The notes below the pieces were generated by a model, which saw only the letters and a list, made by a program, of their open reading frames with translations, was not told the DNA's origin and did no database searches. Shown here one piece after another: positions 3,040 through 29,129 of a stretch of DNA of 39,090 nucleotides (its first letter is position 1; each line of letters opens with the position of its first letter). The position numbers and the translations under genes are program-made. Source of the DNA: Ruminiclostridium sp. (GTDB taxonomy: Bacteria > Bacillota > Clostridia > Oscillospirales > Ruminococcaceae); the NCBI GenBank assembly GCA_017635095.1, contig JAGBMA010000109.1, positions 1 to 39,090 of the forward strand, read 5' to 3'.

Positions 3040-3174
3040 GTAAGTATGATAAAAAGTTGCAAAAATCAATTTAATTATTACAATATTGTCTTTGAGATTC
3101 TTTATCATATGTATTATCCGATCGTTCCGCTGCCGGGGTGACAGACCGGCGATCCGAAACAGTTTCAGGAGAAC

Positions 3175-3210
3175 AAAACCGGATCATCTCCTGGCAGACG
3201 ATCCGGTTTT
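3175..3210. terminator. Bidirectional hairpin terminator
   Basis: Perfect 11-bp inverted repeat AAAACCGGATC / GATCCGGTTTT with a 14-base loop, so both strands end in a T-run. It lies between the AT-rich gene (ending 3325) and the protease promoter region and would insulate the two. Confidence 0.75.
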
Positions 3211-3222
3211 AAGCAATATATT

Positions 3223-3258
3223 GGCAATACCGCGCAAATAGACGCACGAACCTTGTGC
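3223..3258 (+). repeat. Half-copy of dispersed repeat family R2
   Basis: GGCAATACCGCGCAAATAG followed by ACGCACGAACCTTG. Nearly the same 35-base string occurs at 22804-22840 and, inverted, at 34510-34547, where it forms one end of a complete small element. Only one end is present here. Confidence 0.75.
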
Positions 3259-3324
3259 TTTCTTTTATATGCTATTTTGACTTTACACAAAATTCGGGAT
3301 TGAGCCATAAACATGGTTTTTACA

Positions 3325-3750
3325 CTAGGTATTAATAAGTATTTCTTTAAATATAATGGTTATCTTATCTCCATTCCTTAATAAGATTTCAGCTACAATA
3401 CAATCATCAATATTATATCTTGTATTTTTATAACCATTTTTACTACCAGAATTTTGAATATCTTCATTAAGGCGTTTATTTAATATTGATTTAATCCCAG
3501 TAACAATATAATTCTCATTGACACAGTAAAAATCTATTATAGTACAAGTAATTCCATTTTTGAACAAATCTAGTCCCATATAATCAAAACATATAACACC
3601 AATAAATTTAATATTGTATATTTTTCCCTCATATAACTCTATAGTAAAATTTACCGTTTTCTCATTCAAATTAATGTCAAGGCTCAATATATCCGAGTCG
3701 TGAATATCCAAATTTTCTATTATCTTTGTATAATCTTCTTTGTTCATCAT
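3325..3750 (-). CDS. AT-rich orphan gene, small acidic protein of unknown function
   Basis: 141 residues starting at tandem ATG codons (3750 and 3747), with AAAGGA seven bases upstream. An in-frame ATG at 3798 has no ribosome site. The protein starts MMNKEDYTKI and has the phrase IHDSDILSLDINLNEKTV, followed by alternating hydrophobic strands. The layout resembles small beta-rich immunity or YxiG-like proteins that carry an HDS motif near the N-terminus, but I cannot assign a family. Codon use is extremely A/T-biased (Ile ATA, Asn AAT, Lys AAA) and unlike the neighbours, which points to recent transfer. A perfect 13-bp hairpin lies just upstream at 3832-3870 and a terminator downstream at 3175-3210. 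Confidence 0.7.
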   Translation of the reverse strand: MMNKEDYTKIIENLDIHDSDILSLDINLNEKTVNFTIELYEGKIYNIKFIGVICFDYMGLDLFKNGITCTIIDFYCVNENYIVTGIKSILNKRLNEDIQNSGSKNGYKNTRYNIDDCIVAEILLRNGDKITIIFKEILINT

Positions 3751-3831
3751 TATAAATTCCTTTACAATAATCGCATTTAGAAATCTTTTGACACACAATG
3801 TTTGCTATTACAGCTTTTTCCCTAAACATAT

Positions 3832-3870
3832 GTTGCATTTTCATCAGTCTAAAACCAATGAAAATGCAAC
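3832..3870. terminator. Perfect 13-bp hairpin between the AT-rich gene and the membrane-protein gene
   Basis: GTTGCATTTTCAT and ATGAAAATGCAAC flank a 13-base loop. On the plus strand the stem is followed by TTATTTTTCT, a terminator-like tail; on the minus strand there is no T-run. It lies just after the 3' end of the membrane-protein gene (minus strand) and before the AT-rich gene, so it may end transcription or mark the boundary of inserted AT-rich DNA. Confidence 0.5.
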
Positions 3871-4577: not shown

Positions 4578-6023
4578 TCAGTCTATAAGCGCCCTTACCT
4601 TTTCCGTGAGCATTTTCACCGATTCCTTATCCTTATCGGAAAGAGGCTTTTTCTTCATCTGACCGATAAGTCTGACAAATGCCCACAAGGACGAGCTGCG
4701 GACTGCTTTTTCGATCTCAGCTTCGTCGTCGGTCTTAAGATACTGCTTCAGAAAGCTGTGATAAAATGCCGAGGCGGTCTGAACAGAGAACCCCATAAAA
4801 TCTTCAATGATCTTCGGGTCAAGCTCCGCGTAGCCGACATAGAACAGATATATACTGCTGAGGTCAACTATCGGATCACCAATCGCCATTCTGTCAACGT
4901 CTATGAACAGCGGCTCGTTGTTTGAAAGGAACACATTTCCCGTATGGAAATCGCCGTGAACAAGGCAATCCGATACCGGACGAGCCGCGATGATGTCAAA
5001 CAGCTTTTTCTCGGTATCTTCGTCAAGTTTCGCTCTTCTTATCCAACTGTCGATGTATGTGGACGCTTGCGGGAAGAGCTTTCCGTTATCCGGACAGGTG
5101 CTGTGTATCTGCAGCGCAAGCTCAGCCATTACTCCCGCATAGTAATCGGTATGTTCCGGGTTCTTGGCGATAAGCTCGGAGATCGTTTTTGCATCTATCA
5201 GCTCAAACATAGACCCGTAGCCTTTTCCGACAGACACGATTCCGAATGATATCGCAGTTGGCAGACCGAGCACGAAAACGCTTCTTGCAAGAGCTATCTC
5301 TCGCTCAACGTCCTTGTAGGTGTTCTTCTCGTTGTACACCTTTACGATAAGCTCTTCGTCGTAGCGATAAACCTCAGCCTTCGCTCCCTTGCCGATACGG
5401 GCGCAGCCGGAAACATCTATCTCGCGGTACTCCTTGTACTTGGTCTTTGATGTATCAAAAGTACCCGGCCAGATGTAGTTTATCCTGTCGATGTACTCCT
5501 TGTAGGCGCCGGTTTTGTTCAGCTCCATTTCGACGTTTTCCGCTACAGTCTTGTAGTACCACTTATGTATCTCCGGATCCTTCTGGTGGAGATGTTCCCA
5601 TATCTTCTCGCCCATTTCTCCGTAAGAACCTGCAAGCGAGCGCATATTGGACAGCTTATCGGCAAGCCAGAGCATTTTTACGCCGATATCGGTGCTGGTT
5701 TTGAGCTTTTCAAGGCTTTCTTCCTTGCGCCTCTTCCATGTTGCGGCTCTGTCCTCACCCGCGTACTCTTCCTCTGTCTCGGAATCGACGAGATGAGCGA
5801 CCCTGCTGCCGAAGCGCTTCTCTATTTCTTTCAGCGTACCGTCTGTATCCTCAACGATATCATGCAGCACGCCGGCGGCAATTATCTCCATATCATCTGT
5901 CATTCCGGAAAGTATCTGCGCAACTTCGAGCGGGTGGAGTATGTAAGGGGAATTGTTTATCTTCCTTACCTTACCCTGGTGCATTATCGTTGAATAGATT
6001 ATTGCTTCTTCAAGTAAATTCAT
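4578..6023 (-). CDS. Fusion of RSH-type HD hydrolase domain and APH-like kinase domain
   Basis: 481 residues, ATG with AGGTGA upstream. Residues 1-180 are an HD domain of the RelA/SpoT and MESH1 type: His30, the His54-Asp55 pair inside AAGVLHDIVEDTD, and Asp122 in LADKLSN are all present. No synthetase domain follows. Residues about 205-481 are an aminoglycoside-phosphotransferase/choline-kinase fold: a Gly-containing loop (IGKGAKAEVYRY), Lys in LIVKVY, the Brenner motif HGDFHTGNVFL and the metal-binding Asp in FIDVDRMAIGDP. By family knowledge the HD part could hydrolyse (p)ppGpp or a related nucleotide; the kinase substrate is unknown. The next minus-strand gene upstream carries a homologous kinase domain joined to STAS instead, so both may serve the same signalling block. 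Confidence 0.85.
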   Translation of the reverse strand: MNLLEEAIIYSTIMHQGKVRKINNSPYILHPLEVAQILSGMTDDMEIIAAGVLHDIVEDTDGTLKEIEKRFGSRVAHLVDSETEEEYAGEDRAATWKRRKEESLEKLKTSTDIGVKMLWLADKLSNMRSLAGSYGEMGEKIWEHLHQKDPEIHKWYYKTVAENVEMELNKTGAYKEYIDRINYIWPGTFDTSKTKYKEYREIDVSGCARIGKGAKAEVYRYDEELIVKVYNEKNTYKDVEREIALARSVFVLGLPTAISFGIVSVGKGYGSMFELIDAKTISELIAKNPEHTDYYAGVMAELALQIHSTCPDNGKLFPQASTYIDSWIRRAKLDEDTEKKLFDIIAARPVSDCLVHGDFHTGNVFLSNNEPLFIDVDRMAIGDPIVDLSSIYLFYVGYAELDPKIIEDFMGFSVQTASAFYHSFLKQYLKTDDEAEIEKAVRSSSLWAFVRLIGQMKKKPLSDKDKESVKMLTEKVRALID

Positions 6024-6267: not shown

Positions 6268-7452
6268 TCACAGCGGCATTGAAAACAGCTTGCAGAAATT
6301 GTCCACATTCGGAAAAAATCTCTCGCGAAGCATTGCTGTTATCACAGGGGCTTTCGCTTTTGCGCGTTCTGTGCCCATTCCCAGCGTTGCAGCAAGACGG
6401 AACAGAGAGAAGGCTCCGCATATATTGCGGATAAGCCCGAGCTTTCCGGGGTCGGAAGTATCGAAATAAGTCGAAAGTGTGATGTCCCACACCTGTGCTG
6501 CCGACTTGCAGTCGAGCCCGATGACCTGCAAAGATATATTATCGTCATTCCCACCGCCGCTGTTCATTACAAGATACGAACCGGCAAAGTCAAACATCGG
6601 GTTCCCGCGGCTTATATCCGCCATGTCGATAAGCACAAGCTCGCCGTCGGATTGGACCATTACATTATTGGTATGGTAATCGCCGTGTACCATTACGCTG
6701 CCGTCAGGGACAGAATCCAGTATTTTCATAAAAATGTCGTTTTCCGCATCGGTAAAATACTCACCGGCTTTTTGCAGTCTGTCGCGGTATATATCTTTTA
6801 TATCGCCGTAGAGCTTTGGGTCTGCTTCCGTGGAATTGAGAGTTTTCAGCAAGGTTCCGAATTTTACGGCGTATTCCTGCAGTTTGTCGGGGTGAGCCGT
6901 GATATATTTACCGACGGTGGTCGCTCCTGCCATTTCAAATACCAGACCATATCCCTCTTCCGTTTCTGCGATGTCATAGGCTATTGCGGAAGGGACACCG
7001 TGGACAAACGCGTTCTTTGCGTAATCACGCTCTTTTTCGATAAGAGAAAGCGGGCTGTTGTCGTGGTAGACTTTGATGATCGTTTCTTCGTTCAGACGAT
7101 ATACCTTTCCGTGGCCGCCCCGCCCTATCGCCTCGCAGCCTGCAACAGACACCTTTCGCAGCGCCTTTTTCACATCGAGCAGCTCGGTAAATCCCGTAGT
7201 CTCGAATATATCATAAACTTCGCGCGAAACATTGATGACCGCAAGCGGCTTGCCGATGCTTTTGCGGAGCTTCATAAGCACTCTGAGCCCGGCGCTTGAT
7301 ATGTATTCGAGCTTCTCTGCATCTACGGTGATGTCTGCTGTTTTGCCTTCCACAGCACCGAATATTTCCTTTTCGGTCTGCGGAGCGTTGTTTGTGTCTA
7401 TCCTGCCTTCAAGGCGGATAGTCACTTTTCCGTTTTCTTCGTTGATAGTCAT
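6268..7452 (-). CDS. Fusion of STAS (anti-sigma antagonist) domain and APH-like kinase domain
   Basis: 394 residues, ATG preceded by AAAGGAG. Residues 1-97 are a STAS domain closely similar to the free STAS protein at 8214: both start MTIN, both have the EGR(I/L)DT turn, and both have YISSAGLRVLM/L with the candidate phosphorylatable serines. Residues about 105-394 are an APH/choline-kinase-like fold with IGRGGHGKVYRL (nucleotide loop), the Lys in IIKVY, HGDYHTNNVMV and LIDMADISRGNP. All key residues look intact. The gene is divergent from the STAS-MATE-GH3 operon across a 760-base regulatory region and has its own promoter (7599-7628). A STAS domain covalently attached to a kinase suggests that binding by an RsbW-type partner could control the kinase, or that the kinase acts on the circuit; this is inference. 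Confidence 0.87.
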   Translation of the reverse strand: MTINEENGKVTIRLEGRIDTNNAPQTEKEIFGAVEGKTADITVDAEKLEYISSAGLRVLMKLRKSIGKPLAVINVSREVYDIFETTGFTELLDVKKALRKVSVAGCEAIGRGGHGKVYRLNEETIIKVYHDNSPLSLIEKERDYAKNAFVHGVPSAIAYDIAETEEGYGLVFEMAGATTVGKYITAHPDKLQEYAVKFGTLLKTLNSTEADPKLYGDIKDIYRDRLQKAGEYFTDAENDIFMKILDSVPDGSVMVHGDYHTNNVMVQSDGELVLIDMADISRGNPMFDFAGSYLVMNSGGGNDDNISLQVIGLDCKSAAQVWDITLSTYFDTSDPGKLGLIRNICGAFSLFRLAATLGMGTERAKAKAPVITAMLRERFFPNVDNFCKLFSMPL

Positions 7453-7598
7453 GTCCTTGCTCCTTTGCGGCGTATCGCCTGTATTGTATTATCTGATATT
7501 TCTGCGGCCTGCGGCTGGAGTGTTTTATGATATGGCTTGTGACAAAACCTGCTCCGCGGCTTCAATGAATGGTGTACAGGCTGTAATAGCACCCACTG

Positions 7599-7628
7599 AT
7601 TATACCACAAAATGACATTAAAAGTCAA
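7599..7628 (-). promoter_or_regulatory. Sigma-A type promoter of the STAS-kinase fusion gene
   Basis: Minus strand TTGACT (7623-7628), 18-base spacer, TATAAT (7599-7604). It is oriented toward the gene starting at 7452 and leaves a leader of about 140 bases. Confidence 0.7.
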
Positions 7629-7890
7629 TAGACCGAAAGTGCAATTTCCGGATCGCTGAAAAAATGTCCGGTCGGAGAACTGCCTTTGGTATATGCTCTT
7701 GGCTTATATAAAAAGGAGATCTGCTCCGGAGCATATGACAAGCCGGTGCTGCAAAAAAAGAATTCAACTTGTCGCAAAGCGGCAATGCCACGGCTTCCTG
7801 CTGCGGTTTGTCACCCGACCCGGCGCAGCCCGGTCCCGCCGGTTTTCGATGTATCCGGCGCGGGCGGCTCATTTTCTCTTCTTAAAGCGG

Positions 7891-7918
7891 TTTTTAGAGG
7901 TACCCTATAGAGACAATA
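7891..7918 (+). repeat. R1 repeat core, GGTACCC variant
   Basis: GGTTTTTAGAGGTACCC followed by TATAGAGACAATAAA. It lies about 60 bases upstream of the strong promoter at 7966-7994 in the divergent intergenic region. From 7629 to 7890 I see nothing else I can support. Confidence 0.65.
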
Positions 7919-7965
7919 AATTTCTCGTTTTTTCGGTTTGGCGTGCAAAGATTGCAGTTCGAAAG

Positions 7966-7994
7966 TTGACATTCGACATTTTGTATGATATAAT
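7966..7994 (+). promoter_or_regulatory. Consensus sigma-A promoter for the RNA-like element and STAS-GH3 operon
   Basis: TTGACA (7966-7971), 17-base spacer, TATAAT (7989-7994): a perfect consensus. Transcription from about 8001 would pass through the conserved element at 8003-8160 into the STAS gene. The -10 region and the following block are shared with 38204 onward. Confidence 0.8.
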
Positions 7995-8213: not shown

Positions 8214-8510
8214 ATGACCATCAACAAAAATCAGAACGGAGAAACACTTACTATAGCGATCGAGGGAAGACTTGACACAGTGACAGCGCCCCAGCTTGAA
8301 ACAGAGGTGAAGGCTTCTGTGGACGGGATCAAGGAGCTGATATTCGATATGTCAAAGCTCGAATACATATCTTCTGCAGGACTGCGCGTGCTGCTTTCAT
8401 CGCAGAAGATCATGAATAAGCAGGGAAAAATGATTGTCAGAGGCGCCGGCGAAGCTATAATGGAGATCTTTGACGTGACCGGTTTTGCAGATCTGCTGAA
8501 TATCGAATAA
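8214..8510 (+). CDS. STAS-domain anti-sigma factor antagonist (RsbV/SpoIIAA-like)
   Basis: 98 residues; the start is set by GGAGG seven bases before the ATG, and a longer frame from 8133 lacks a ribosome site. A complete single STAS domain: EGRLDTVTAPQLE, FDMSKLEYISSAGLRVLL (candidate phospho-acceptor Ser53/Ser54) and the closing VTGFADLLNIE. In partner switching, the unphosphorylated form binds an RsbW-type kinase and frees its client; phosphorylation blocks this. First gene of a five-gene operon that also encodes two RsbW-like domains and one SpoIIE phosphatase, so the full phosphorylation cycle is present in cis. One base separates its stop from the next ATG. Confidence 0.93.
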   Translation: MTINKNQNGETLTIAIEGRLDTVTAPQLETEVKASVDGIKELIFDMSKLEYISSAGLRVLLSSQKIMNKQGKMIVRGAGEAIMEIFDVTGFADLLNIE

Positions 8511-8511
8511 A

Positions 8512-10248
8512 ATGGACAAAAACGAAGGAATGCGCGCGCTGTCCCAGAATCAGGCATTCCTGAAAAAAGCATACACATCTGCGCTGATACCGTGTATGCT
8601 CTCTATAGTGAGCAATTGTGCGAACATCATTGCAGACGGTATTCTTGTGGGACAAAAGATAGGTGTTGCGGGACTTTCCGCGATAAATCTGTGTGTGCCG
8701 GTTTATCTTGTATTGTGCGTTATCGGATCGTTTTTTGTTTCGGGGACCGCTATTTGCGCTTCAAATGAAATAGGTAAGGGAAACGCCGACTCCGCACAGA
8801 AATATTACGGCACAGCGCTTACAGCGTGTACTGTATTCTCTGTTATAATGGCGGTTGTCGGGGTGTTCCTTTCGGATGCCGTGACATCTCTTCTTTGCTC
8901 TGAACCCGGGGTTTACCCTATGGTGAGGGATTACACACAGGTAACGCTTATCGGAGCCGCCCCGAAAATACTCATATATATGCCTTTCTGGTTTCTGCGG
9001 CTTGACGGCAGGAACAAGACTGTTACTGTTATGATGGCGATAATGGGCGTGGGCAACATACTTCTTGATATACTGTTTCTGTTTGTGATGGATATGGGTG
9101 TGTTCGGCGCGGCACTCGCAAGTGTGATCGCAACGTGCATTGCCTGCGTTATAGGTTTTGTGAGCCAGCATACGGGCAAGGCGACTTTCGTGTTCAGACC
9201 CGCTGTTCCGGATAAGAAAACAATTGTGAGAATGTCTAAAGCCGGTACTCCCGCGGCGCTGAACAATCTTATGCAGACTTTCAGACTGCTTTTTATCAAC
9301 GGTTTGCTTATGTCATACGGCGGTACTGAAGCGGTGGCGGTGTTTACCGTTGTCAACGGAATAGCCGCCTTTTCGGAAGCCGTTACTTCGGGTGTGCCCC
9401 AGGCTGCGTCGGCTATGCTCGGGGTATATAACGGGGAACACGATAATAAGAGCACAGTTATACTGCTGAAGCTCGAATTTGTCAGCGGTGTTATAAATTC
9501 CGCGGTGTTCGGCATCATCATTACAGCCGGTGCGGGAGTTATCGGTATGCTTTACGGTATCGACGTACCGATGTATATACCTATGCTCTGTCTTGCGCTG
9601 AGTCTGATACCGTGCCTTTGGAACAGCATATTGTCCGGATATTATAACGTTTCCGGCAGGGCTTTGCTTTCTTCCGTCATCATATTCCTGAGGGTATTTG
9701 TTTTTACTGTTATAAGCCTTTGGGGGCTGACGGCGGCCGGGTTTATACCGTGGCTCTTCCTCCCGCTGACGGAACTGCTCACCACGGGAGTGTGGTTTTT
9801 CATTACGCGTGAGTTGAGCCGAAAAAAAGAAAATATCAGCCGTTATATGCTTATGGACACGACGCTCGACAAAAGCGGCAATGTTATCAATTTTTCCATG
9901 ATAAGCGATAATGACGCGATATGTGACGCCTGTGAGCGTATTACCGGATTTTGTGAGAAAAACGGTATGCAGATGAAACAGACCATGCGTGTGAGTCTGG
10001 CTCTCGAAGAGATAATGACCGTCATTTCGCAGGACAATGCACCGAACAACGTGAATTTCGATATTCGCGTGTTCGCCATACAAGATGTTATCGGTATAAG
10101 AATACGTTATGACGGTAAGGAGCTTGACCCGCTGCAGTTTGATGCGGACGACGAGAGATATATGGGAGTCTCTATGATAAAAAGCCTTGTGGAAGAGCTG
10201 GTTTACACACAGGTCGTAGGTTTGAACTCGCTGATGATAATTATTTAA
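8512..10248 (+). CDS. MATE-family transporter fused to a C-terminal RsbW-like (GHKL) domain
   Basis: 578 residues. Residues about 15-440 are a MATE/polysaccharide-flippase-type transporter with about 12 membrane segments (for example SIVSNCANIIADGILVGQ in the first repeat). Residues about 446-578 are a cytoplasmic domain that reads as an RsbW-type ATPase: a VSLALEEIM helix (E499/E500), the RYDGKELDPL turn that matches IDSGMPYDPL of the kinase at 13530, and a final helix-strand pair. It is degenerate: the N-box Asn is Thr503, and the glycine lid (GGLG in the intact paralog) reads MGVS. It may therefore bind STAS or nucleotide without phosphorylating. The start codon follows the STAS stop by one base and has no clear ribosome site, which suggests translational coupling. 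The transported substrate is unknown. Confidence 0.88.
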   Translation: MDKNEGMRALSQNQAFLKKAYTSALIPCMLSIVSNCANIIADGILVGQKIGVAGLSAINLCVPVYLVLCVIGSFFVSGTAICASNEIGKGNADSAQKYYGTALTACTVFSVIMAVVGVFLSDAVTSLLCSEPGVYPMVRDYTQVTLIGAAPKILIYMPFWFLRLDGRNKTVTVMMAIMGVGNILLDILFLFVMDMGVFGAALASVIATCIACVIGFVSQHTGKATFVFRPAVPDKKTIVRMSKAGTPAALNNLMQTFRLLFINGLLMSYGGTEAVAVFTVVNGIAAFSEAVTSGVPQAASAMLGVYNGEHDNKSTVILLKLEFVSGVINSAVFGIIITAGAGVIGMLYGIDVPMYIPMLCLALSLIPCLWNSILSGYYNVSGRALLSSVIIFLRVFVFTVISLWGLTAAGFIPWLFLPLTELLTTGVWFFITRELSRKKENISRYMLMDTTLDKSGNVINFSMISDNDAICDACERITGFCEKNGMQMKQTMRVSLALEEIMTVISQDNAPNNVNFDIRVFAIQDVIGIRIRYDGKELDPLQFDADDERYMGVSMIKSLVEELVYTQVVGLNSLMIII

Positions 10249-10259
10249 AGGTGATAAAG

Positions 10260-11918
10260 ATGGAAAGCGGAAGGTATGCCGAAGCTTTTCGGCATCTGCG
10301 CGATGTGTGCGGCAGAGCCGTGAGTGAACAGGAGGCATTGCTGAAGCGGCTGCTGCAGGAAAACAAAGATACTGTATATGGGCGCAGATATGGCTTTGCT
10401 GATATACGCGGGCACACGGATTACCGGGAAAAGGTGCCTGTCACTGTTTTTTCGGACTACGATGGGTATATAAACAGGATAATAAACGGTGACAGAGATG
10501 TTCTTACTTCCGCGCCCGCAGTGTTTTTCAATGTAAGCTCCGGCAGTGTCGGAGAACAGAAGTATATCCCTATTGTCCGCGAAGATGTTGACAAGCACCG
10601 CCTTTACGCTGAGGAAGCGATACCCGGTATAGTGCAGAACGAACTTCCGCATGATGACCCGGAGGAACTTTTCGGCTGTATCTTCAATGTCGGTGATGTT
10701 TTTATGACGACTCTGGCTGACGGAAGGCTGTGCGGAGTGCGTTCCGGTATCTATCTGCAAAGCGCGATGGCGGCAGGTGAGCTTGACACCTCGGTATATA
10801 CCGCCCCGCCCGACATTATGTTCCCGCGGGAGATAACCGATATGCTGTACCCGAAGGTGAGGTACGCGCTTGCAAATGAGAACGTTACTGCGATACACGG
10901 CGTTTTTGTTCACCGTATGGCCGGACTTTTCGGATATATCGAGCGCAACTTCGGCGCTTTTATCGAAGATATAAGATACGGCAGGGTCGGTGAGGGCTTC
11001 CGCATGAGCGACAGCGTGCGAAAGCAGCTTAGCGGCAGATTTGCTCCGGATCCCGAACGGGCAGACTATCTTGCTTCTATTGCCGGCAAAGATCTTGCAT
11101 ACGGTATGCTGCTCAAGATATGGCGGAAGCTGCGGTATATAAGGTGCATAAACGGAGGCCAGTTCAGTGTTTACGGTGACAGCGCTTCAAGGTATGTCAA
11201 AGGAGTCCCGATACACAGTTATATTTACGCGGCGTCCGAGAGCGGGATAGGAGTTTCTCCGGGAATGGGACTGCAGGGCGAATATGTCCTGCTGCCCGAT
11301 GTGTGCTATACCGAGTTCATACCGGACGAGTCCGGCGATGAGACCGATACGCTCACCATAGGCGAGATCGAGACCGGAAAGCGCTATGAAATAATCATCA
11401 CGACTTTGTCCGGTCTTTACCGGTACAGGTTAGGCGATGTTGTTGAGGTCACCGGACGGTATGGCGAGGCGCCTGTAATAAGAATCTGCTATCGCAGGGA
11501 ACTTGTTATGAATGTCGCGGACGAGCGAATGAACGCTTCTCAGCTTGAACCGGCGGTCATGCTTTTTGAGCAGAGAACAGGAATATCGACCTTAAAGTAT
11601 TGTTTCTCCGGCGAAATGGGCGACACGCTGCCGAGGTATGTTCTGTATATCGAAGCGCCGCTCACAGGTGTGACGGATGCCGGCATGATACTTGACGAGT
11701 GCCTTTGCAAGTTCGGCGTCAATTACAGAAACGAGAGAATCATCGGAAGTCTCGGTGTACCGGACGTAAAGCCACTGAAGCCCGGGAGCTTCGCGGAATA
11801 TTACAGCGAATTCCGGGACGGAAAGAGAAATGACCAGCTCAAACCGCTCAGGATACTCACATCACCGGAACAGATCTCTTTTTTCAGGAGCAGAATGGAG
11901 GATAATAATGGAGAATAA
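10260..11918 (+). CDS. GH3-family acyl-acid amido synthetase (ANL superfamily)
   Basis: 552 residues. I chose the ATG at 10260 because AAAGGTG sits six bases upstream; a GTG at 10251 is the alternative. GH3 enzymes adenylate a carboxylic acid with ATP and transfer it to an amino acid or other amine. Visible family features: the N-terminal LLQENKDTVYGRRYGF, the phosphate-binding loop FNVSSGSVGEQKYIPI, the ISSG-like and adenine-binding region around SASRYVKGVPIHSYIYAASESGIG, the YRYRLGDVVEV motif, and a C-terminal lobe with GVNYRNER and LKPGSF. The full family length is present. In bacteria the substrates are mostly unknown. Here it sits between a transporter and the phosphatase, and its stop overlaps the next ATG by 11 bases. 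The reasonable reading is that its product is what the transporter handles, but no sequence feature proves it. Confidence 0.88.
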   Translation: MESGRYAEAFRHLRDVCGRAVSEQEALLKRLLQENKDTVYGRRYGFADIRGHTDYREKVPVTVFSDYDGYINRIINGDRDVLTSAPAVFFNVSSGSVGEQKYIPIVREDVDKHRLYAEEAIPGIVQNELPHDDPEELFGCIFNVGDVFMTTLADGRLCGVRSGIYLQSAMAAGELDTSVYTAPPDIMFPREITDMLYPKVRYALANENVTAIHGVFVHRMAGLFGYIERNFGAFIEDIRYGRVGEGFRMSDSVRKQLSGRFAPDPERADYLASIAGKDLAYGMLLKIWRKLRYIRCINGGQFSVYGDSASRYVKGVPIHSYIYAASESGIGVSPGMGLQGEYVLLPDVCYTEFIPDESGDETDTLTIGEIETGKRYEIIITTLSGLYRYRLGDVVEVTGRYGEAPVIRICYRRELVMNVADERMNASQLEPAVMLFEQRTGISTLKYCFSGEMGDTLPRYVLYIEAPLTGVTDAGMILDECLCKFGVNYRNERIIGSLGVPDVKPLKPGSFAEYYSEFRDGKRNDQLKPLRILTSPEQISFFRSRMEDNNGE

Positions 11919-13533
11919 TACGGGGAAACGATCAAGAATATCTGTCGTTATAGTTACGGGGATCACTTTTATCGTAGTGCTGCTGACTTTTGTTACAGCA
12001 ATGATAGGTTACAGTGAGTTCACTTCTGTGCTTGAGAAGCAGTATAACGATTCTGCATACGAGGTGGCATATACCGCGCTGTCATATCTCAATCCTGACA
12101 GATTTTCTCATTATGTGGAGACACTTGAAACAGACGAGGAGTTCGATGTCATACAGAAACGCCTTGATGAGCTTACCGATAATATGAATGTAAATTTCAT
12201 ATATGTCGGGGAAGTGGATCCCGAGGGAAAGTCGATCATCTATATCTACGACTCCGTCAACTCGTCTCTCGGGTATGACAGATACCCTCTCGGAAAGATC
12301 GGTGAGGATTTTGATCCCCAGTACAATCAGATACTCAGAGATGTTATCAGTACAGGCGAAAGATCGGATATATACCTGTATTCCTATACCGAGTGGGGAG
12401 ATCACACGACGGCTCTGCTGCCGGTCAAGGATTCCAACGGTAAGGTAGTTTCAATAATCTGCGTTGAGAAAACGATGGAGGTACTCCAGCAGGCGCGAAA
12501 CGACTATGTGGTCCACGTTGTTGTATTCTCGGGCATAGTACTTGTCATAGCGGTGCTGATATGCTTCCTGTTCCTGAGGCAGTACGTTATTTCGCCTATA
12601 GCGGAGATAACGCATGAAGCAGAGAGATTTGCGGACGACCACAGCGCAGGCAGCGATATAAAGGCGGTATCGTCAAGGAACGAGATAGGTGTGCTTGCAC
12701 GTTCCGTCAAAAAGATGGAATCGGATATTATACAGTACATAGATAATATCACGAAGATAACCGCTGAAAAAGAGCGTATCGGCGCGGAGCTCAATGTAGC
12801 AACGCAGATCCAGGCGGATATGCTCCCGTCCATATTCCCCCCATTCCCCGATCGCAGCGAGTTCGATATCTACGCTACCATGACCCCGGCTAAGGAGGTC
12901 GGCGGTGACTTCTACGACTTCTTCCTTATTGATGACGATCACCTTGCAATGGTAATGGCGGACGTTTCCGGCAAGGGCGTTCCTGCAGCTCTGTTCATGG
13001 TAATTGCAAAGACACTCATAAAGAACCACGCACAGCTTGGTGAATATTCTCCGTCCAAAGTCCTGATGAGTGCAAACGAGCAGCTCTGTGAGGGCAACGA
13101 GGCAGAACTTTTCGTAACTGTATGGATGGCTATACTTGAAATATCCACCGGTAAGGGAAAGGCGGCAAATGCCGGACATGAGCATCCTGCTCTTCGCCGC
13201 AAGGACGGAAAGTTTGAGCTTATCGAATATCGCCATTCGCCCGCAGTCGCAACAATGGAGGGCATACGCTTCAAGGAGCACGACTTCGAGCTGCACCCCG
13301 GAGACAGCCTGTTCGTATATACGGACGGTGTGGCGGAAGCTACTGACGCGCACAATGAACTGTTCGGCGGCGAGAGAATGATCGAAGCTCTGAACAAGAA
13401 TCCGGACGCTTCCCCGAAGGAAATGCTTGCAAATGTAAAGGCTTCGGTAGATGAATTTGTCGGTGAAGCTCCGCAGTTCGACGATATAACGATGCTTGGT
13501 CTTAAATACTTTGGCGCAGAGGATAACAAATGA
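11908..13533 (+). CDS. Membrane sensor with HAMP-like linker and SpoIIE/RsbU-type PP2C phosphatase
   Basis: 541 residues; ATG 11908 follows GGAGG and lies inside the end of the GH3 gene. Membrane segment at about 12-36, an extracytoplasmic sensor at about 37-200 (includes YIYDSVNSSLGYDRYPLG; Cache-like in size and pattern), a second membrane segment at about 205-230, a HAMP-type linker and coiled coil to about 300, then the phosphatase. SpoIIE landmarks are intact: ERIGAELNVATQIQADMLP, EVGGDFYDFFLIDDD, MADVSGKGVPAALFM, NAGHEHPALRR, FVYTDGVAEA and FDDITMLGL. It should dephosphorylate a phospho-STAS protein in response to an outside signal. Its stop overlaps the next start (ATGA). Confidence 0.92.
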   Translation: MENNTGKRSRISVVIVTGITFIVVLLTFVTAMIGYSEFTSVLEKQYNDSAYEVAYTALSYLNPDRFSHYVETLETDEEFDVIQKRLDELTDNMNVNFIYVGEVDPEGKSIIYIYDSVNSSLGYDRYPLGKIGEDFDPQYNQILRDVISTGERSDIYLYSYTEWGDHTTALLPVKDSNGKVVSIICVEKTMEVLQQARNDYVVHVVVFSGIVLVIAVLICFLFLRQYVISPIAEITHEAERFADDHSAGSDIKAVSSRNEIGVLARSVKKMESDIIQYIDNITKITAEKERIGAELNVATQIQADMLPSIFPPFPDRSEFDIYATMTPAKEVGGDFYDFFLIDDDHLAMVMADVSGKGVPAALFMVIAKTLIKNHAQLGEYSPSKVLMSANEQLCEGNEAELFVTVWMAILEISTGKGKAANAGHEHPALRRKDGKFELIEYRHSPAVATMEGIRFKEHDFELHPGDSLFVYTDGVAEATDAHNELFGGERMIEALNKNPDASPKEMLANVKASVDEFVGEAPQFDDITMLGLKYFGAEDNK

Positions 13534-13934
13534 AAGATATAACCGTAAAAGCCACAGACGAAGAACTTAACACAGTCATTGCTTTCGTGACTGAGCAGCT
13601 CGAAACTGTGGACTGCCCGATGAAAGCGCAGATGCAGCTGGAGGTCGCGGTAGAAGAATTATTCGTGAATATTGCACACTATGCTTATGCACCGGAAACC
13701 GGGAATGCGACGATACGCACGGAGATAACCGGCGAAACTGCCGAGATAACCTTCATAGACAGCGGAATGCCATATGATCCGCTTGCAAAGCCCGACCCCG
13801 ATGTTACACTTTCGGCAGAGGAAAGGAAGATAGGCGGGCTTGGCATCTATATGGTAAAAAAGAGTATGGACGATGTGAGATATGAGTACACCGACGGCAA
13901 AAACATACTCACGATCGTAAAAAAGCTCGTCTGA
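13530..13934 (+). CDS. RsbW/SpoIIAB-like anti-sigma factor kinase (HATPase_c_2)
   Basis: 134 residues. Intact GHKL ATP-binding motifs: N-box with Glu43 and Asn47 (EVAVEELFVNIAHYAY), G1 box Asp77 in FIDSGMPYDPL, and the glycine lid IGGLGIYMVKK at 101-111. By family knowledge it phosphorylates the STAS protein and holds a client when the STAS protein is phosphorylated. Usually the client is a sigma factor, but none is encoded in this operon. Last gene of the operon, overlapping the phosphatase gene by four bases and followed by a terminator. Compare with the degenerate copy on the MATE transporter. Confidence 0.92.
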   Translation: MKDITVKATDEELNTVIAFVTEQLETVDCPMKAQMQLEVAVEELFVNIAHYAYAPETGNATIRTEITGETAEITFIDSGMPYDPLAKPDPDVTLSAEERKIGGLGIYMVKKSMDDVRYEYTDGKNILTIVKKLV

Positions 13935-13971
13935 TCCGGTTACAGACGAGACAAAGAGTCATAATTTCTTA

Positions 13972-14014
13972 CAGGGAATACTCTGTCGGTGATCGGCAGG
14001 ATATTCCCTGTTTT
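13972..14014 (+). terminator. Terminator of the STAS-MATE-GH3-SpoIIE-RsbW operon
   Basis: CAGGGAATA (13972-13980) pairs with TATTCCCTG (14002-14010), followed by TTTTG. A second 8-bp hairpin, CTCGTCTG/CAGACGAG at 13926-13950, covers the stop codon. Confidence 0.7.
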
Positions 14015-23147: not shown

Positions 23148-23335
23148 AATGTTATAACAAAATTGATTTTGGAAAGCGAAACGAAGCATCCTGATTATAA
23201 AAATTCAGTTATGTCATTTTATAGAATAAGAAACCGTAATTTAGAGAAATTAGAAAATAAGCACAAAGTACTTTACAAAAAAGAACAATTGTGCTATAAT
23301 GTAAGTAAGATAAGAACAGGCGTTTTGAAGTAGAG
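23148..23335 (+). pseudogene. AT-rich fragment with a possible C-terminal protein remnant
   Basis: In one plus frame, from about 23147 to a TAG near 23333, about 60 residues read open (includes LILESETKHPDYKNSVMSFY and NRNLEKLENKHKVLYKK). No good start is present (an internal ATG at 23211 lacks a ribosome site). It looks like the C-terminal end of an unrecognised, highly charged protein, lower in GC than the neighbours. It starts where the response regulator is broken, so it probably marks the edge of inserted DNA. The promoter at 23272-23300 lies inside it. Confidence 0.3.
23272..23300 (+). promoter_or_regulatory. Strong sigma-A promoter upstream of the holin-like gene
   Basis: TTTACA (23272-23277), 17-base spacer, TATAAT (23295-23300), with an extended TG before the -10. 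Start expected near 23307. Confidence 0.75.
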
Positions 23336-23458
23336 ACTGTGCTGCTACGCACCTTACGGGTCAAAAGAAATGCGGGAAGGGGCACACCCGCCAAAATGCC
23401 GATTTCTGAACCGCTTTGAGCAATCAAGGCGGTTTTCTTATGCCCGAAAGGAGCCCCA
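23307..23458 (+). other. Structured leader with two hairpins ahead of the holin-like gene
   Basis: Contains GCGGG/CCCGC with a 9-base loop near 23371-23390 and a stronger AACCGCTTTGA / TCAAGGCGGTT hairpin (one G-T pair) near 23408-23434, followed by TTTCTT. The second has terminator form, so the leader may be an attenuator or the end of an earlier phage transcript. I do not recognise it as a known riboswitch. Confidence 0.4.
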
Positions 23459-26971: not shown

Positions 26972-28657
26972 TTATTCTGTTGTTTGTTCAGGGTCAATGA
27001 CATCGCTGTCCGGGAATGATATCGCCAGATGTGCGCCGGTGGTGAAGCCGGTCAGACCGACCGCAGCGATCTTGTCGCCTGCTTTCACGGTATCGCCGAC
27101 ATTCACGAAAACGGCACTGCAATGACTGTATCTCCATTTTCTTCCGTCGGGAGACTGAATAATGACATAGAAACCTTCCTTGTGTTCGCTTTCGCTGTTT
27201 GCATATTTATGGGAGGTATCTGTTTCAACTACCTTTCCGCCTGTTACCGCGAATATAAGGTCGCCGTCCTGTGCCTTGATGGTGAATCTGTAATCTCCGC
27301 TTGTATCGGGTCCTGTCATTTCATCGTGAGTGCGGTATTTCACATCATCGGTTATCTGCTCTTTGAGCGGGTAACAGTAGTCGTCGCCCGCGTACTGTTT
27401 CAATATGCTCAGTGCAGCTTCACCCTCGTAATAGCCGGGGTGCGACGGTGCTGTCGTGGTGTCCTCGGAGCTTTCTTCCGCCGGTTCGCTCGTTTCCAAA
27501 GGAGCTGTTGTAACAGCAGTTATTGTAGTAGCATAGGCTTCCACGATCTCACCGTTTTCAAGCACGGTAGTAATTATGTGGCGTGCTTCTCCCGTAAGCT
27601 CCGTTATTTTGCCGTTTATCTCAAAAGCCCTCATTTTAGTAAGGTCTATGCCGATATCATCGGGATAGAAAAGATATACTCCCTCCCACTCGTATTCCAC
27701 ATCGGGGTTGCCCTCTACTTTCAAAGATACAGTCTGCATATTCAGTGCTATCCGGGTACCGTCATTCGCTATCGCGAATATTTCCGGTTCAACCCTTTTA
27801 TCGCTCCTCCAACCAGTCGCTCCCGGGTCTTTCGAGTTTGCCTGCATTGTTATCGTGAGCGGAGTAATACTAAGCCCCGCGCACCACACATTCGGCTCTA
27901 TTTCCTTATTGTCTTCGAGCGGCTGATAGACATGCGTGTTTTCCTCCTTTCGCACCGTTACCGTAAGATCGTTTATGCGCTCTATGTTGCCCTCCTGCGG
28001 TATCATCTCGGGAACGAGATCATAGTTCTTAAAAGCCTGGATCGGCAGCGGAATGAATTGTACTGCTTCAACATAACGGTTTTCCGTGTCATAAACCGGA
28101 GTATATGACTTGATGTTTTCAACGGAGTATCCATATATACGCGACATCGGTTCGAGTGTGAAGCCGAACGGATTTGATCCCTCGTCGTAATTTACGGAAT
28201 AATCGAGCCTCATGACCTCCCCGTCGAATGCCGCGCCTGTGATGCTTACAGTCTCATTTGAGAATTTCAGCGTTTTCCCGACAAGCTCGGACAGACTTAT
28301 CCCGGTGCTTGTTACGGGATCGGCATAATATGTGCTGCCGGAGGAATGCCCCGCACCGGTGCTTTCAATTCCTCTCTCTTTAAGCCCGCCGTGCTCACCC
28401 AGCCAGTTCAGTCCGAATACCGCTCCGGTGAGGACTGCCGCTGTTCCGGCTATGCCCAGAACTGCATTACGGAGCCTGTGCGGTCTGTATTCTGCCGCTG
28501 ATGCGGGCATCTCTCTTATACTGCCGCCCTGACCTGTCATCACCGTATTCCGCCTTGCTTTCGCACGGACGGCAGCCGAAAAATCGCTGTCGCTCATGCG
28601 GCTTTTTTTATTACCGAGCGCATGAAACGCTTCATCAAACATATTTTTATATGTCAT
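26972..28657 (-). CDS. Membrane anti-sigma factor (1) with DUF4179-like ectodomain and degenerate LytM domain
   Basis: 561 residues. Cytoplasmic N-terminus at about 1-82 (KNMFDEAFHALGNKKSRMSD), membrane segment at about 84-105, an ectodomain whose first part (LVGKTLKFSNETVSITGAA) matches the corresponding part of the anti-sigma at 35686, a Thr/Glu/Ser-rich linker at about 390-420 and a C-terminal M23/LytM-like domain at about 430-561. That domain has YSHCS, VNVGDTVKAGDKIAAVG and TGAHLAISF. The usual HLH zinc motif reads HLA and the HxxxD motif is not evident, so it is probably a peptidoglycan-binding or sensing domain rather than an endopeptidase. The start overlaps the sigma gene by 11 bases, the usual pairing for an inhibitor. 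Confidence 0.85.
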   Translation of the reverse strand: MTYKNMFDEAFHALGNKKSRMSDSDFSAAVRAKARRNTVMTGQGGSIREMPASAAEYRPHRLRNAVLGIAGTAAVLTGAVFGLNWLGEHGGLKERGIESTGAGHSSGSTYYADPVTSTGISLSELVGKTLKFSNETVSITGAAFDGEVMRLDYSVNYDEGSNPFGFTLEPMSRIYGYSVENIKSYTPVYDTENRYVEAVQFIPLPIQAFKNYDLVPEMIPQEGNIERINDLTVTVRKEENTHVYQPLEDNKEIEPNVWCAGLSITPLTITMQANSKDPGATGWRSDKRVEPEIFAIANDGTRIALNMQTVSLKVEGNPDVEYEWEGVYLFYPDDIGIDLTKMRAFEINGKITELTGEARHIITTVLENGEIVEAYATTITAVTTAPLETSEPAEESSEDTTTAPSHPGYYEGEAALSILKQYAGDDYCYPLKEQITDDVKYRTHDEMTGPDTSGDYRFTIKAQDGDLIFAVTGGKVVETDTSHKYANSESEHKEGFYVIIQSPDGRKWRYSHCSAVFVNVGDTVKAGDKIAAVGLTGFTTGAHLAISFPDSDVIDPEQTTE

Positions 28658-29129
28658 CTTCGATCTCTCCTTTTATTAGTGCTTTCAGCTTTTCACGACC
28701 GCTTTTCAGCCGCTGCTTTACTGCCGACTGGCTTATTTTCAGTATCCGGGCTGTCTCCTGTACCGAATAGCCCTCGTAATAATGCAGGTATATCGCTATA
28801 CGCAGTTTAGCCGGAAGAGCCATTATCGCGGGCAGTACCGCGCTTTTCTCGTTATTTCGGGCAGGCTGTTCACCGATATCCGAAAGCGAAACAGCGTTTT
28901 TCCGTCTGAACGAGCGCAGAGCGTCGATGCTCAGATTCGCGGCACATCGGAGCAGCCAAGCCCTGACGTGTTCATCGCCTGTGAACCTGCCGGAGTATGT
29001 ATATAGCCGCAGAAACACCTCCTGCGCTATATCCTCCGCTTCGTCGGCGTCCCGCAGTATGCACATCGCGGCTCGCGTCACGCTGTTCCGGTAAAGCCCG
29101 ACATATCGGTCAAAGTCGTTGTCTGTCAT
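28647..29129 (-). CDS. ECF-type RNA polymerase sigma factor (1)
   Basis: 160 residues. Region 2 with DADEAEDIAQEVFLRLYTY and VRAWLLRCAANLSIDALRS; region 4 with YYEGYSVQETARILKISQSA and VKQRLKSGREKLKALI. AAGGAAG ribosome site before the ATG at 29129. Followed by its overlapping anti-sigma. A 13-base motif upstream (29162-29174) is shared with the region before the divergent GH5 gene. Confidence 0.94.
   Translation of the reverse strand: MTDNDFDRYVGLYRNSVTRAAMCILRDADEAEDIAQEVFLRLYTYSGRFTGDEHVRAWLLRCAANLSIDALRSFRRKNAVSLSDIGEQPARNNEKSAVLPAIMALPAKLRIAIYLHYYEGYSVQETARILKISQSAVKQRLKSGREKLKALIKGEIEDDI

Follow-up and report, generated by a model that had tools for sequence, protein, structure and literature searches.

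The contig JAGBMA010000109.1 of Ruminiclostridium sp. (assembly GCA_017635095.1), analysed here over 39,090 nucleotides and called the window in the following, carries five genes on the same strand at 8214–13934 which form one operon. They code for a STAS protein, a MATE exporter with an RsbW-like tail, a GH3-family enzyme, a SpoIIE-type phosphatase, and an RsbW-like kinase. The four junctions are, in gene order, a 1-base gap, a 2-base gap, an 11-base overlap, and a 4-base overlap. This operon is real and widespread, and the question considered is what its regulatory proteins control. The genes and their parts are:

8214–8510, plus strand: STAS protein (RsbV/SpoIIAA-like) with the phosphosite region YISSAGLR (Pfam STAS, 4e-16)
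8512–9837, plus strand: membrane part of the MATE exporter, whole gene 8512–10248 (PF01554 in two stretches; MatE, 3e-19)
about 9838–10248, plus strand: RsbW-like (GHKL) C-terminal tail of the MATE with a degenerate ATP site (profile comparison and motif reading)
10251–11918, plus strand: GH3-family acyl acid amido synthetase (Pfam GH3, 5e-57, together with the middle and C-terminal GH3 domains)
11908–13533, plus strand: SpoIIE-type phosphatase with two membrane helices, an outside sensor of about 165 residues and a HAMP-like linker (PF07228, 4.7e-45; helices by eye)
13530–13934, plus strand: RsbW/SpoIIAB-like kinase with intact ATP-site motifs (HATPase_c_2, 3e-25)

The start of the GH3 gene is annotated as GTG at 10251, and an in-frame ATG at 10260 looks likelier. 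The SpoIIE start at 11908 was set by eye; the tool for open reading frames (ORFs) places it at 11830. The first-pass annotation had described the five-gene order with its overlaps and tiny gaps, as well as intact motifs; coordinates, Pfam domains, and the phosphosite and ATP-site boxes bear this out.

To follow the operon in other genomes, named genomes were scanned with an alignment of the MATE, and the best 80 of 91 relatives were analysed (loci and genomes are given as L numbers). A tailed MATE is present in 68 of the 80 loci. The other 12 were set aside. They comprise four fragments or pieces (L207, L211, L214, L218) and eight MATEs of the ordinary kind, 447–495 aa long, from Paenibacillus, Helicobacter, and others, near which no GH3, STAS or SpoIIE gene was seen. 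Considering the loci with at least 6 kb of downstream sequence (n=50), GH3 is found in 49, SpoIIE in 49, and RsbW in 40; L199 is a locus with neither GH3 nor a downstream SpoIIE gene. In 34 of 56 loci a STAS gene is found no more than 2.5 kb upstream. Thus the linkage predicted by the first-pass annotation holds across gut Clostridia, and chance grouping of the five genes is ruled out because the gene set is conserved across loci. The 68 loci are mostly labelled as gut Clostridia (Lachnospiraceae, Oscillospiraceae, Ruminococcus, Eubacterium, and others), with one metagenome-assembled genome each labelled Spirochaetaceae and Dehalococcoidales; these are record labels and misbinning is possible. 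Since the query of the scan was drawn from GH3-linked MATEs, the linkage applies within that branch. Some loci are near-copies of one another or of loci from the genus, and 29 of 32 complete ones are nonredundant at 90% MATE identity.

Searches starting from the other genes gave a similar but looser picture. Of 28 GH3 matches in the genus, 23 with E<1e-30 were counted and five with E above 1e-30 dropped. SpoIIE follows directly downstream in 14 of the 23 and a tailed MATE adjoins in 12; nine others comprise a 570-aa type without such same-strand neighbours (four), a type of about 500 aa (three), and glycosyltransferase-2 (GT2) fusions behind STAS genes (two). Outside the genus 33 rows were obtained, one being the window itself; 20 weaker ones were dropped and 12 with E<1e-40 kept, and here SpoIIE is adjoining or one gene away in nine and a tailed MATE is adjacent in four. 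The tail profile, stand-alone RsbW-like proteins included, has matches in 28 of 71 genomes of the genus and, among genomes drawn from the class, in 28 of 391, representing 20 of 222 genera; 33 of 40 class matches lie in open frames of MATE size (570–673 aa). In a plasmid collection no close relative was found among the matches listed, the best showing 27% identity.

The switch proteins appear intact. The window STAS protein retains its phosphosite motif (YISSAGLR, the SSAG form), and among 53 STAS-bearing ORFs 49 have SSAG or SSSG, two have CSAG, and two have no match, one of these with masked letters. In L144 (same locus as L035), a close relative of the window, no phosphosite motif is found in the STAS ORF before the operon (7551–7922), which appears to be frame-shifted or wrongly assembled. 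The window kinase at 13530 has the full RsbW/SpoIIAB-like domain. The N-box Asn, the G1 Asp, and the G2 motif GGLG are invariant in 43 of 43 RsbW relatives, which were chosen with a profile of the operon RsbW proteins, and the sole PDB match of the kinase profile at E ≤0.01 is an RsbW. The outside part of the SpoIIE protein (about 165 residues) matches no named sensor family; HAMP alone is common (22/32). By sequence, all protein parts of an RsbU/V/W-type switch are therefore present, namely a SpoIIE/PP2C phosphatase, a STAS protein with the phosphosite Ser, and a kinase with N, G1, and G2 boxes, whereas a sigma factor client encoded alongside was not found in the operon loci searched.

The MATE itself is matched by PF01554 with 69.8 bits (cut-off 24.9) and by TIGR00797 with 122.3 bits, which is under the cut-off of 147.4. 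Its tail, which we take to be cytosolic from knowledge of the family, is weak in Pfam (HATPase_c_2, 5.7e-4, 20.3 bits, cut-off 27.4). The same family, PF13581, is matched by 41 of 53 aligned tails at E ≤0.01 with a best value of 1.6e-16, and a comparison of the tail profile with the RsbW profile by hhalign gave 96.5% and E 7e-10. In a PDB search with the tail, SpoIIAB ranked after PomB (E 0.03) with an E of about 0.2, which is not significant. In the ATP site of the window tail Val stands in place of the N-box Asn and Tyr in place of the G1 Asp. Among 80 MATE tails the Asn is kept in 10, the Asp in 11, and both in nine; all nine belong to second MATEs in loci that also carry a degenerate-tailed MATE. 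An active kinase was considered for the window tail and rejected, the ATP-site residues being gone and persisting only in some second MATEs. The values for tail and MATE core are 0.41/0.37, 0.54/0.56, and 0.81/0.81 in three divergence bins (31 loci), and the two diverge equally. The tail is as conserved as the MATE core and is therefore retained by selection. As a separate observation, seven loci (L162, L168, L173, L177, L179, L182, L208) show a gene for a nonribosomal peptide synthetase (NRPS), then a second MATE with N-box Asn and G1 Asp, and then the MATE-GH3-SpoIIE operon; a glyoxalase-like gene is also present in five of the seven.

The tail is not confined to MATE proteins. It is found on ABC ATPases in 15 of the 68 operon loci, some of them within a single protein of about 900 aa; the profile used for this count was partly built from these loci, and the carrier in L207 was left out as this locus is not among the 68. 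According to hhalign the ABC tail matches the MATE tail with 98.7% (E 3.5e-16) and RsbW with 97.1% (E 4.8e-11). In three checked cases (L064, L093, L172) the tailed ABC ATPases have SBP_bac_3-type solute-binding/permease proteins as partners. In L100 a Na+:dicarboxylate symporter has an N-terminal copy of the tail domain, and a STAS gene adjoins.

We compared the surroundings of tailed and untailed MATEs in 16 genomes. A STAS or SpoIIE gene among the matches listed lies within 5 kb of 16 of 43 tailed MATEs and of 5 of 108 untailed ones (Fisher p 1e-6); as the GH3 operons are counted among the tailed MATEs, the contrast is inflated. Partial distance correlations over 29 loci, which are suggestive only because locus pairs are not independent, were 0.47 for tail and RsbW (bootstrap 0.25–0.63), 0.56 for RsbW and the catalytic part of SpoIIE, and 0.31 for STAS and RsbW. 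The SpoIIE sensor gave 0.60 with the MATE core and 0.37 with GH3.

From the gene content and the domains, the best-supported reading is that transporter activity is the output of the switch. That the operon is a partner-switching module acting on the transporter, and not on a sigma factor, we regard as somewhat more probable than the opposite. RsbW would phosphorylate the STAS protein, and an outside ligand would cause SpoIIE to dephosphorylate it. STAS, RsbW or both would then bind the MATE tail according to the phosphorylation of STAS, which would turn export on or off. GH3 would make an amide of a carboxylate and an amino acid, and the MATE would export that amide; in some relatives an ABC transporter with the same tail would be switched alongside the MATE.

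The first-pass annotation had proposed the transporter, through its tail, and/or the synthetase as the switched client. For the transporter this is likely, the same tail being found on MATE and ABC proteins and one symporter, often beside STAS, SpoIIE or RsbW genes. GH3 as client is not supported: the enzyme lacks a switch domain, and there are STAS/SpoIIE operons which have a tailed MATE but no GH3 (L067, L072, L073, L235, L243). In MATE operons the place of GH3 can be taken by a formyltransferase-like protein (L072, L073) or by an uncharacterised protein (L067). STAS-GH3-SpoIIE operons without MATE do exist (L135, L138) and weigh against dismissing GH3.

Several results count against the transporter as output. 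No STAS gene is found within 2.5 kb in 22 of 56 loci, and no RsbW gene downstream in 10 of 50. In 6 of 19 class-wide tailed-MATE loci the stretch contains neither STAS nor SpoIIE nor a stand-alone RsbW gene. The tail-STAS partial distance correlation is –0.01 (29 loci), so that direct coevolution was not seen, whereas STAS tracks GH3, if weakly, at 0.24. In addition, sigma factor genes lie near STAS genes in a few cases described below. Distant copies of STAS or RsbW may serve the loci without local ones; in the window's own genome 29 STAS and 16 SpoIIE matches were found among the matches listed.

A variant of the transporter reading assumes another direct partner: the tail would pair with RsbW, STAS would act on RsbW only, and STAS phosphorylation would decide whether RsbW stays docked. 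RsbW/SpoIIAB-type GHKL proteins are known to form dimers. The correlation of the tail with RsbW, set against its absence with STAS, argues for such a kinase-pseudokinase pair, as do the nine tails of second MATEs that keep both ATP-site residues. However, the tail and RsbW, both being GHKL domains, could be subject to common rate effects, the locus pairs are not independent, and the loci without a downstream RsbW gene do not fit. We consider this pairing unlikely.

Alternatively, the RsbW-like domains of the transporters could be ports and STAS domains tags that bring enzymes to them, with kinase and phosphatase setting the docking time. This would account for STAS-APH proteins encoded close to a tailed MATE or ABC protein in seven loci (window, L035, L036, L076, L085, L086, L185; assigned by homology to the window protein reaching into the APH part) and for a methyltransferase-STAS protein near a tailed MATE in L033. 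Single proteins of 520–535 aa combine STAS, APH, and RsbW (L234 7139–8701, L243 8452–10041, L246 11702–13309; confirmed by Pfam for L243), and share stretches with a tailed MATE, tying the STAS-APH proteins to the switch. On the other hand, GH3 lacks a STAS domain, and the STAS proteins of the operons mostly consist of that domain alone. In these genomes STAS genes are also common and the proximities are uncontrolled, and L035 and the genomes behind several of the loci are closely related to the window's. Such a docking function is distinctly improbable.

Furthermore, the switch could act in the usual way on a sigma factor, encoded either nearby or at another place, and GH3 and MATE would merely be cotranscribed. 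The switch parts are canonical, and in 4 of 68 loci (L150, L153, L163, L188) a gene for an extracytoplasmic function (ECF) sigma factor lies directly before STAS. In L188 the ECF gene has radical SAM and Nif11-like peptide genes as neighbours and may therefore be part of a peptide cluster. In the window's own genome (L251, contig C118) a window-like STAS gene at 5269–5580 lies 1.4 kb from a sigma gene at 3089–3859, which is matched by the SigF query at 3e-32 and, judged by its motif, presumably codes for SigG; looser and weaker STAS-sigma pairs occur in L252 and L253. These pairs keep the sigma explanation alive. Against it, a SigF query detected no SigB/SigF-type sigma factor in the window, L029–L054, L063–L102, L132–L223, and L231–L250, and within the window the closest sigma gene observed, at 28647–29129 on the opposite strand, is of the ECF type. 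In the loci searched, the first-pass description of the operon as having no sigma factor holds for the SigB/SigF type; the neighbouring sigma gene which it had named as contrary evidence does occur in the four loci, there as ECF only. In addition, 13 of 13 genomes have, on another contig, a STAS gene less than 1 kb from a sigF-size sigma gene, as seen by eye among the matches listed, which gave 2–29 STAS matches per genome. Three such pairs were examined; NCBIfam identified one SpoIIAB over its cut-off and the sigma factor as SigF/SigB/SigG-like below the cut-offs. A sigma factor client would also leave the RsbW-like tails on three kinds of transporter unexplained, and we judge it still less probable than docking by STAS tags.

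Directly upstream of the operon, L188 (4005–7677) and L187 (5687–7988) encode leader peptides of the Nif11-like kind along with a radical SAM protein, and L188 has the ECF sigma factor there as well.

Finally, the tail could be an appendage that serves structure or nucleotide sensing and is unconnected with the switch. The tailed MATEs without switch genes nearby, in 6 of 19 class-wide loci and in several loci of the genus, would agree with this, but tailed MATEs are enriched beside switch genes and the operon order is conserved. Since most tails have lost ATP-site residues, nucleotide sensing is disfavoured, and the appendage is the least probable of the explanations considered.

Going beyond the transporter reading, the STAS/RsbW-like pair might be a general phosphorylation-controlled wiring of outside signals, transporters, and small-molecule synthesis in gut Clostridia. 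RsbW-like tails would mark transporters (MATE, ABC, symporter), STAS would act alone or as an enzyme tag, and the SpoIIE sensor would listen to the compound made and exported by its own operon. This we put forward tentatively, and rather doubt it as a whole.

As to the possible product, the window GH3 protein carries all three GH3 domains (PF03321, PF23571, PF23572). In 14 aligned GH3 proteins S97, G98, G101, K104, S329, E330, Y390, R391, Y392, and D396 are invariant; we take S97–K104, S329 E330, and Y390–D396 to be nucleotide-site motifs. GH3 enzymes couple acids to amino acids, and from family knowledge an acyl-amino-acid product is plausible. The protein does not reach the NCBIfam equivalog cut-off for the lyso-ornithine lipid synthetase OlsH (72.6 against 620 bits). 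An NRPS gene lies upstream on the same strand in 8 of the 68 loci; the four of these NRPS that were scanned with Pfam contain condensation, adenylation, carrier, and terminal reductase domains, and three class-wide tailed MATEs likewise come after a reductase-ended NRPS. NRPS of this kind are known to produce pyrazinones and dipeptide aldehydes in gut bacteria. In some loci (L143, L191, L232) an ATP-grasp ligase adjoins the MATE.

Other arrangements were seen around GH3 and switch genes. The GT2-GH3 fusions stand directly behind STAS genes (L043 582–3185, L048 8351–10969) and are followed by a gene that resembles, by eye, an AMP-binding ligase. In another genus (L132 1647–4546) a STAS-APH gene overlaps the GH3 gene by 4 bases. 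L052 (11006–15920) has carrier-protein-like and reductase-like genes (by eye) and a ketoacyl synthase, followed by a SpoIIE-RsbW pair.

Outside the coding region of the operon the following features were identified:

7966–7994, plus strand: promoter-like site TTGACA-17-TATAAT with TG, 12/12 (pattern match only)
13971–14011, plus strand: terminator-like stem-loop behind the RsbW-like gene (fold z –3.8)
6268–7452, minus strand: divergent STAS-APH protein, a possible accessory part (Pfam; the same kind is found near tailed transporters in other loci)
4578–6023, minus strand: HD_4-APH protein adjoining the STAS-APH protein, a possible accessory part (domain searches)

The first site, a sigma-70 consensus with extended –10, stands 220 bases ahead of the STAS start and is likely, by its sequence, to be the operon promoter. 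Over the whole region promoter-like matches (13 against 10.1 expected) and terminator-like ones (7 against 5.3) are near chance. The exact sigma-70 consensus upstream and the strong stem after the last gene suggest that the operon may use the housekeeping sigma factor. Elsewhere in the window, a skipping-rope small RNA was found at 23320–23399 on the plus strand (Rfam RF02924).

Should the transporter reading be correct, a membrane transporter as client would be a new and widespread output for a classic switch. It could explain the many STAS and SpoIIE genes in these genomes and would tie outside sensing directly to the export of undescribed gut metabolites, namely GH3 conjugates and products of reductase-ended NRPS. 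As there are cultured carriers among the loci, for instance Petralouisia muris (L182), Lachnospiraceae bacterium 3-1 (L208), and Oscillibacter valericigenes An411 (L189), this reading is testable. A literature search covering top-ranked titles and abstract openings, with subscription journals mostly outside, yielded nothing on RsbW-tailed MATE or ABC proteins.

Partner switching is known mainly for freeing sigma factors. With the SpoIIAA-SpoIIAB-SigF and RsbV-RsbW-SigB systems the operon shares the STAS protein, the RsbW-type kinase, and the SpoIIE/RsbU-type phosphatase; it differs in having no SigB/SigF-type sigma factor and in a transporter that bears an RsbW-like pseudokinase tail. On the side of the enzyme, plant GH3 proteins (JAR1, PBS3/GH3.12) are a parallel; structures of plant GH3 are matched by the GH3 profile including the window protein across almost its full length. 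The plant transporter EDS5 is a MATE, and we know of no partner switch in the plant GH3/EDS5 pathway. STAS domains are linked to membrane transport in MlaB-MlaF. EDS5 and PBS3 are described as a transporter-GH3 pair in salicylate synthesis (PMC11416591), and OlsH as a bacterial GH3 enzyme making N-acyl-ornithine (PMC12493201). OlsH, as portrayed there, is like the window protein a GH3 enzyme of the kind that joins an acid and an amino acid; the window protein scores far below the OlsH cut-off. An excerpt of PMC8256260 describes HmpUVW of Nostoc and SypA/SypE of Vibrio fischeri as STAS, RsbW, and PP2C-type parts without known sigma client, and SLC26/SulP transporters as carriers of a STAS domain, so that STAS is tied to membrane transport. 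In the former systems the target is, according to this excerpt, unknown or regulatory, whereas here a candidate client is encoded inside the operon. As far as the same excerpt goes, SLC26/SulP represents the STAS side, whereas here the transporter bears the RsbW-like side, with STAS protein, kinase, and phosphatase as separate proteins.

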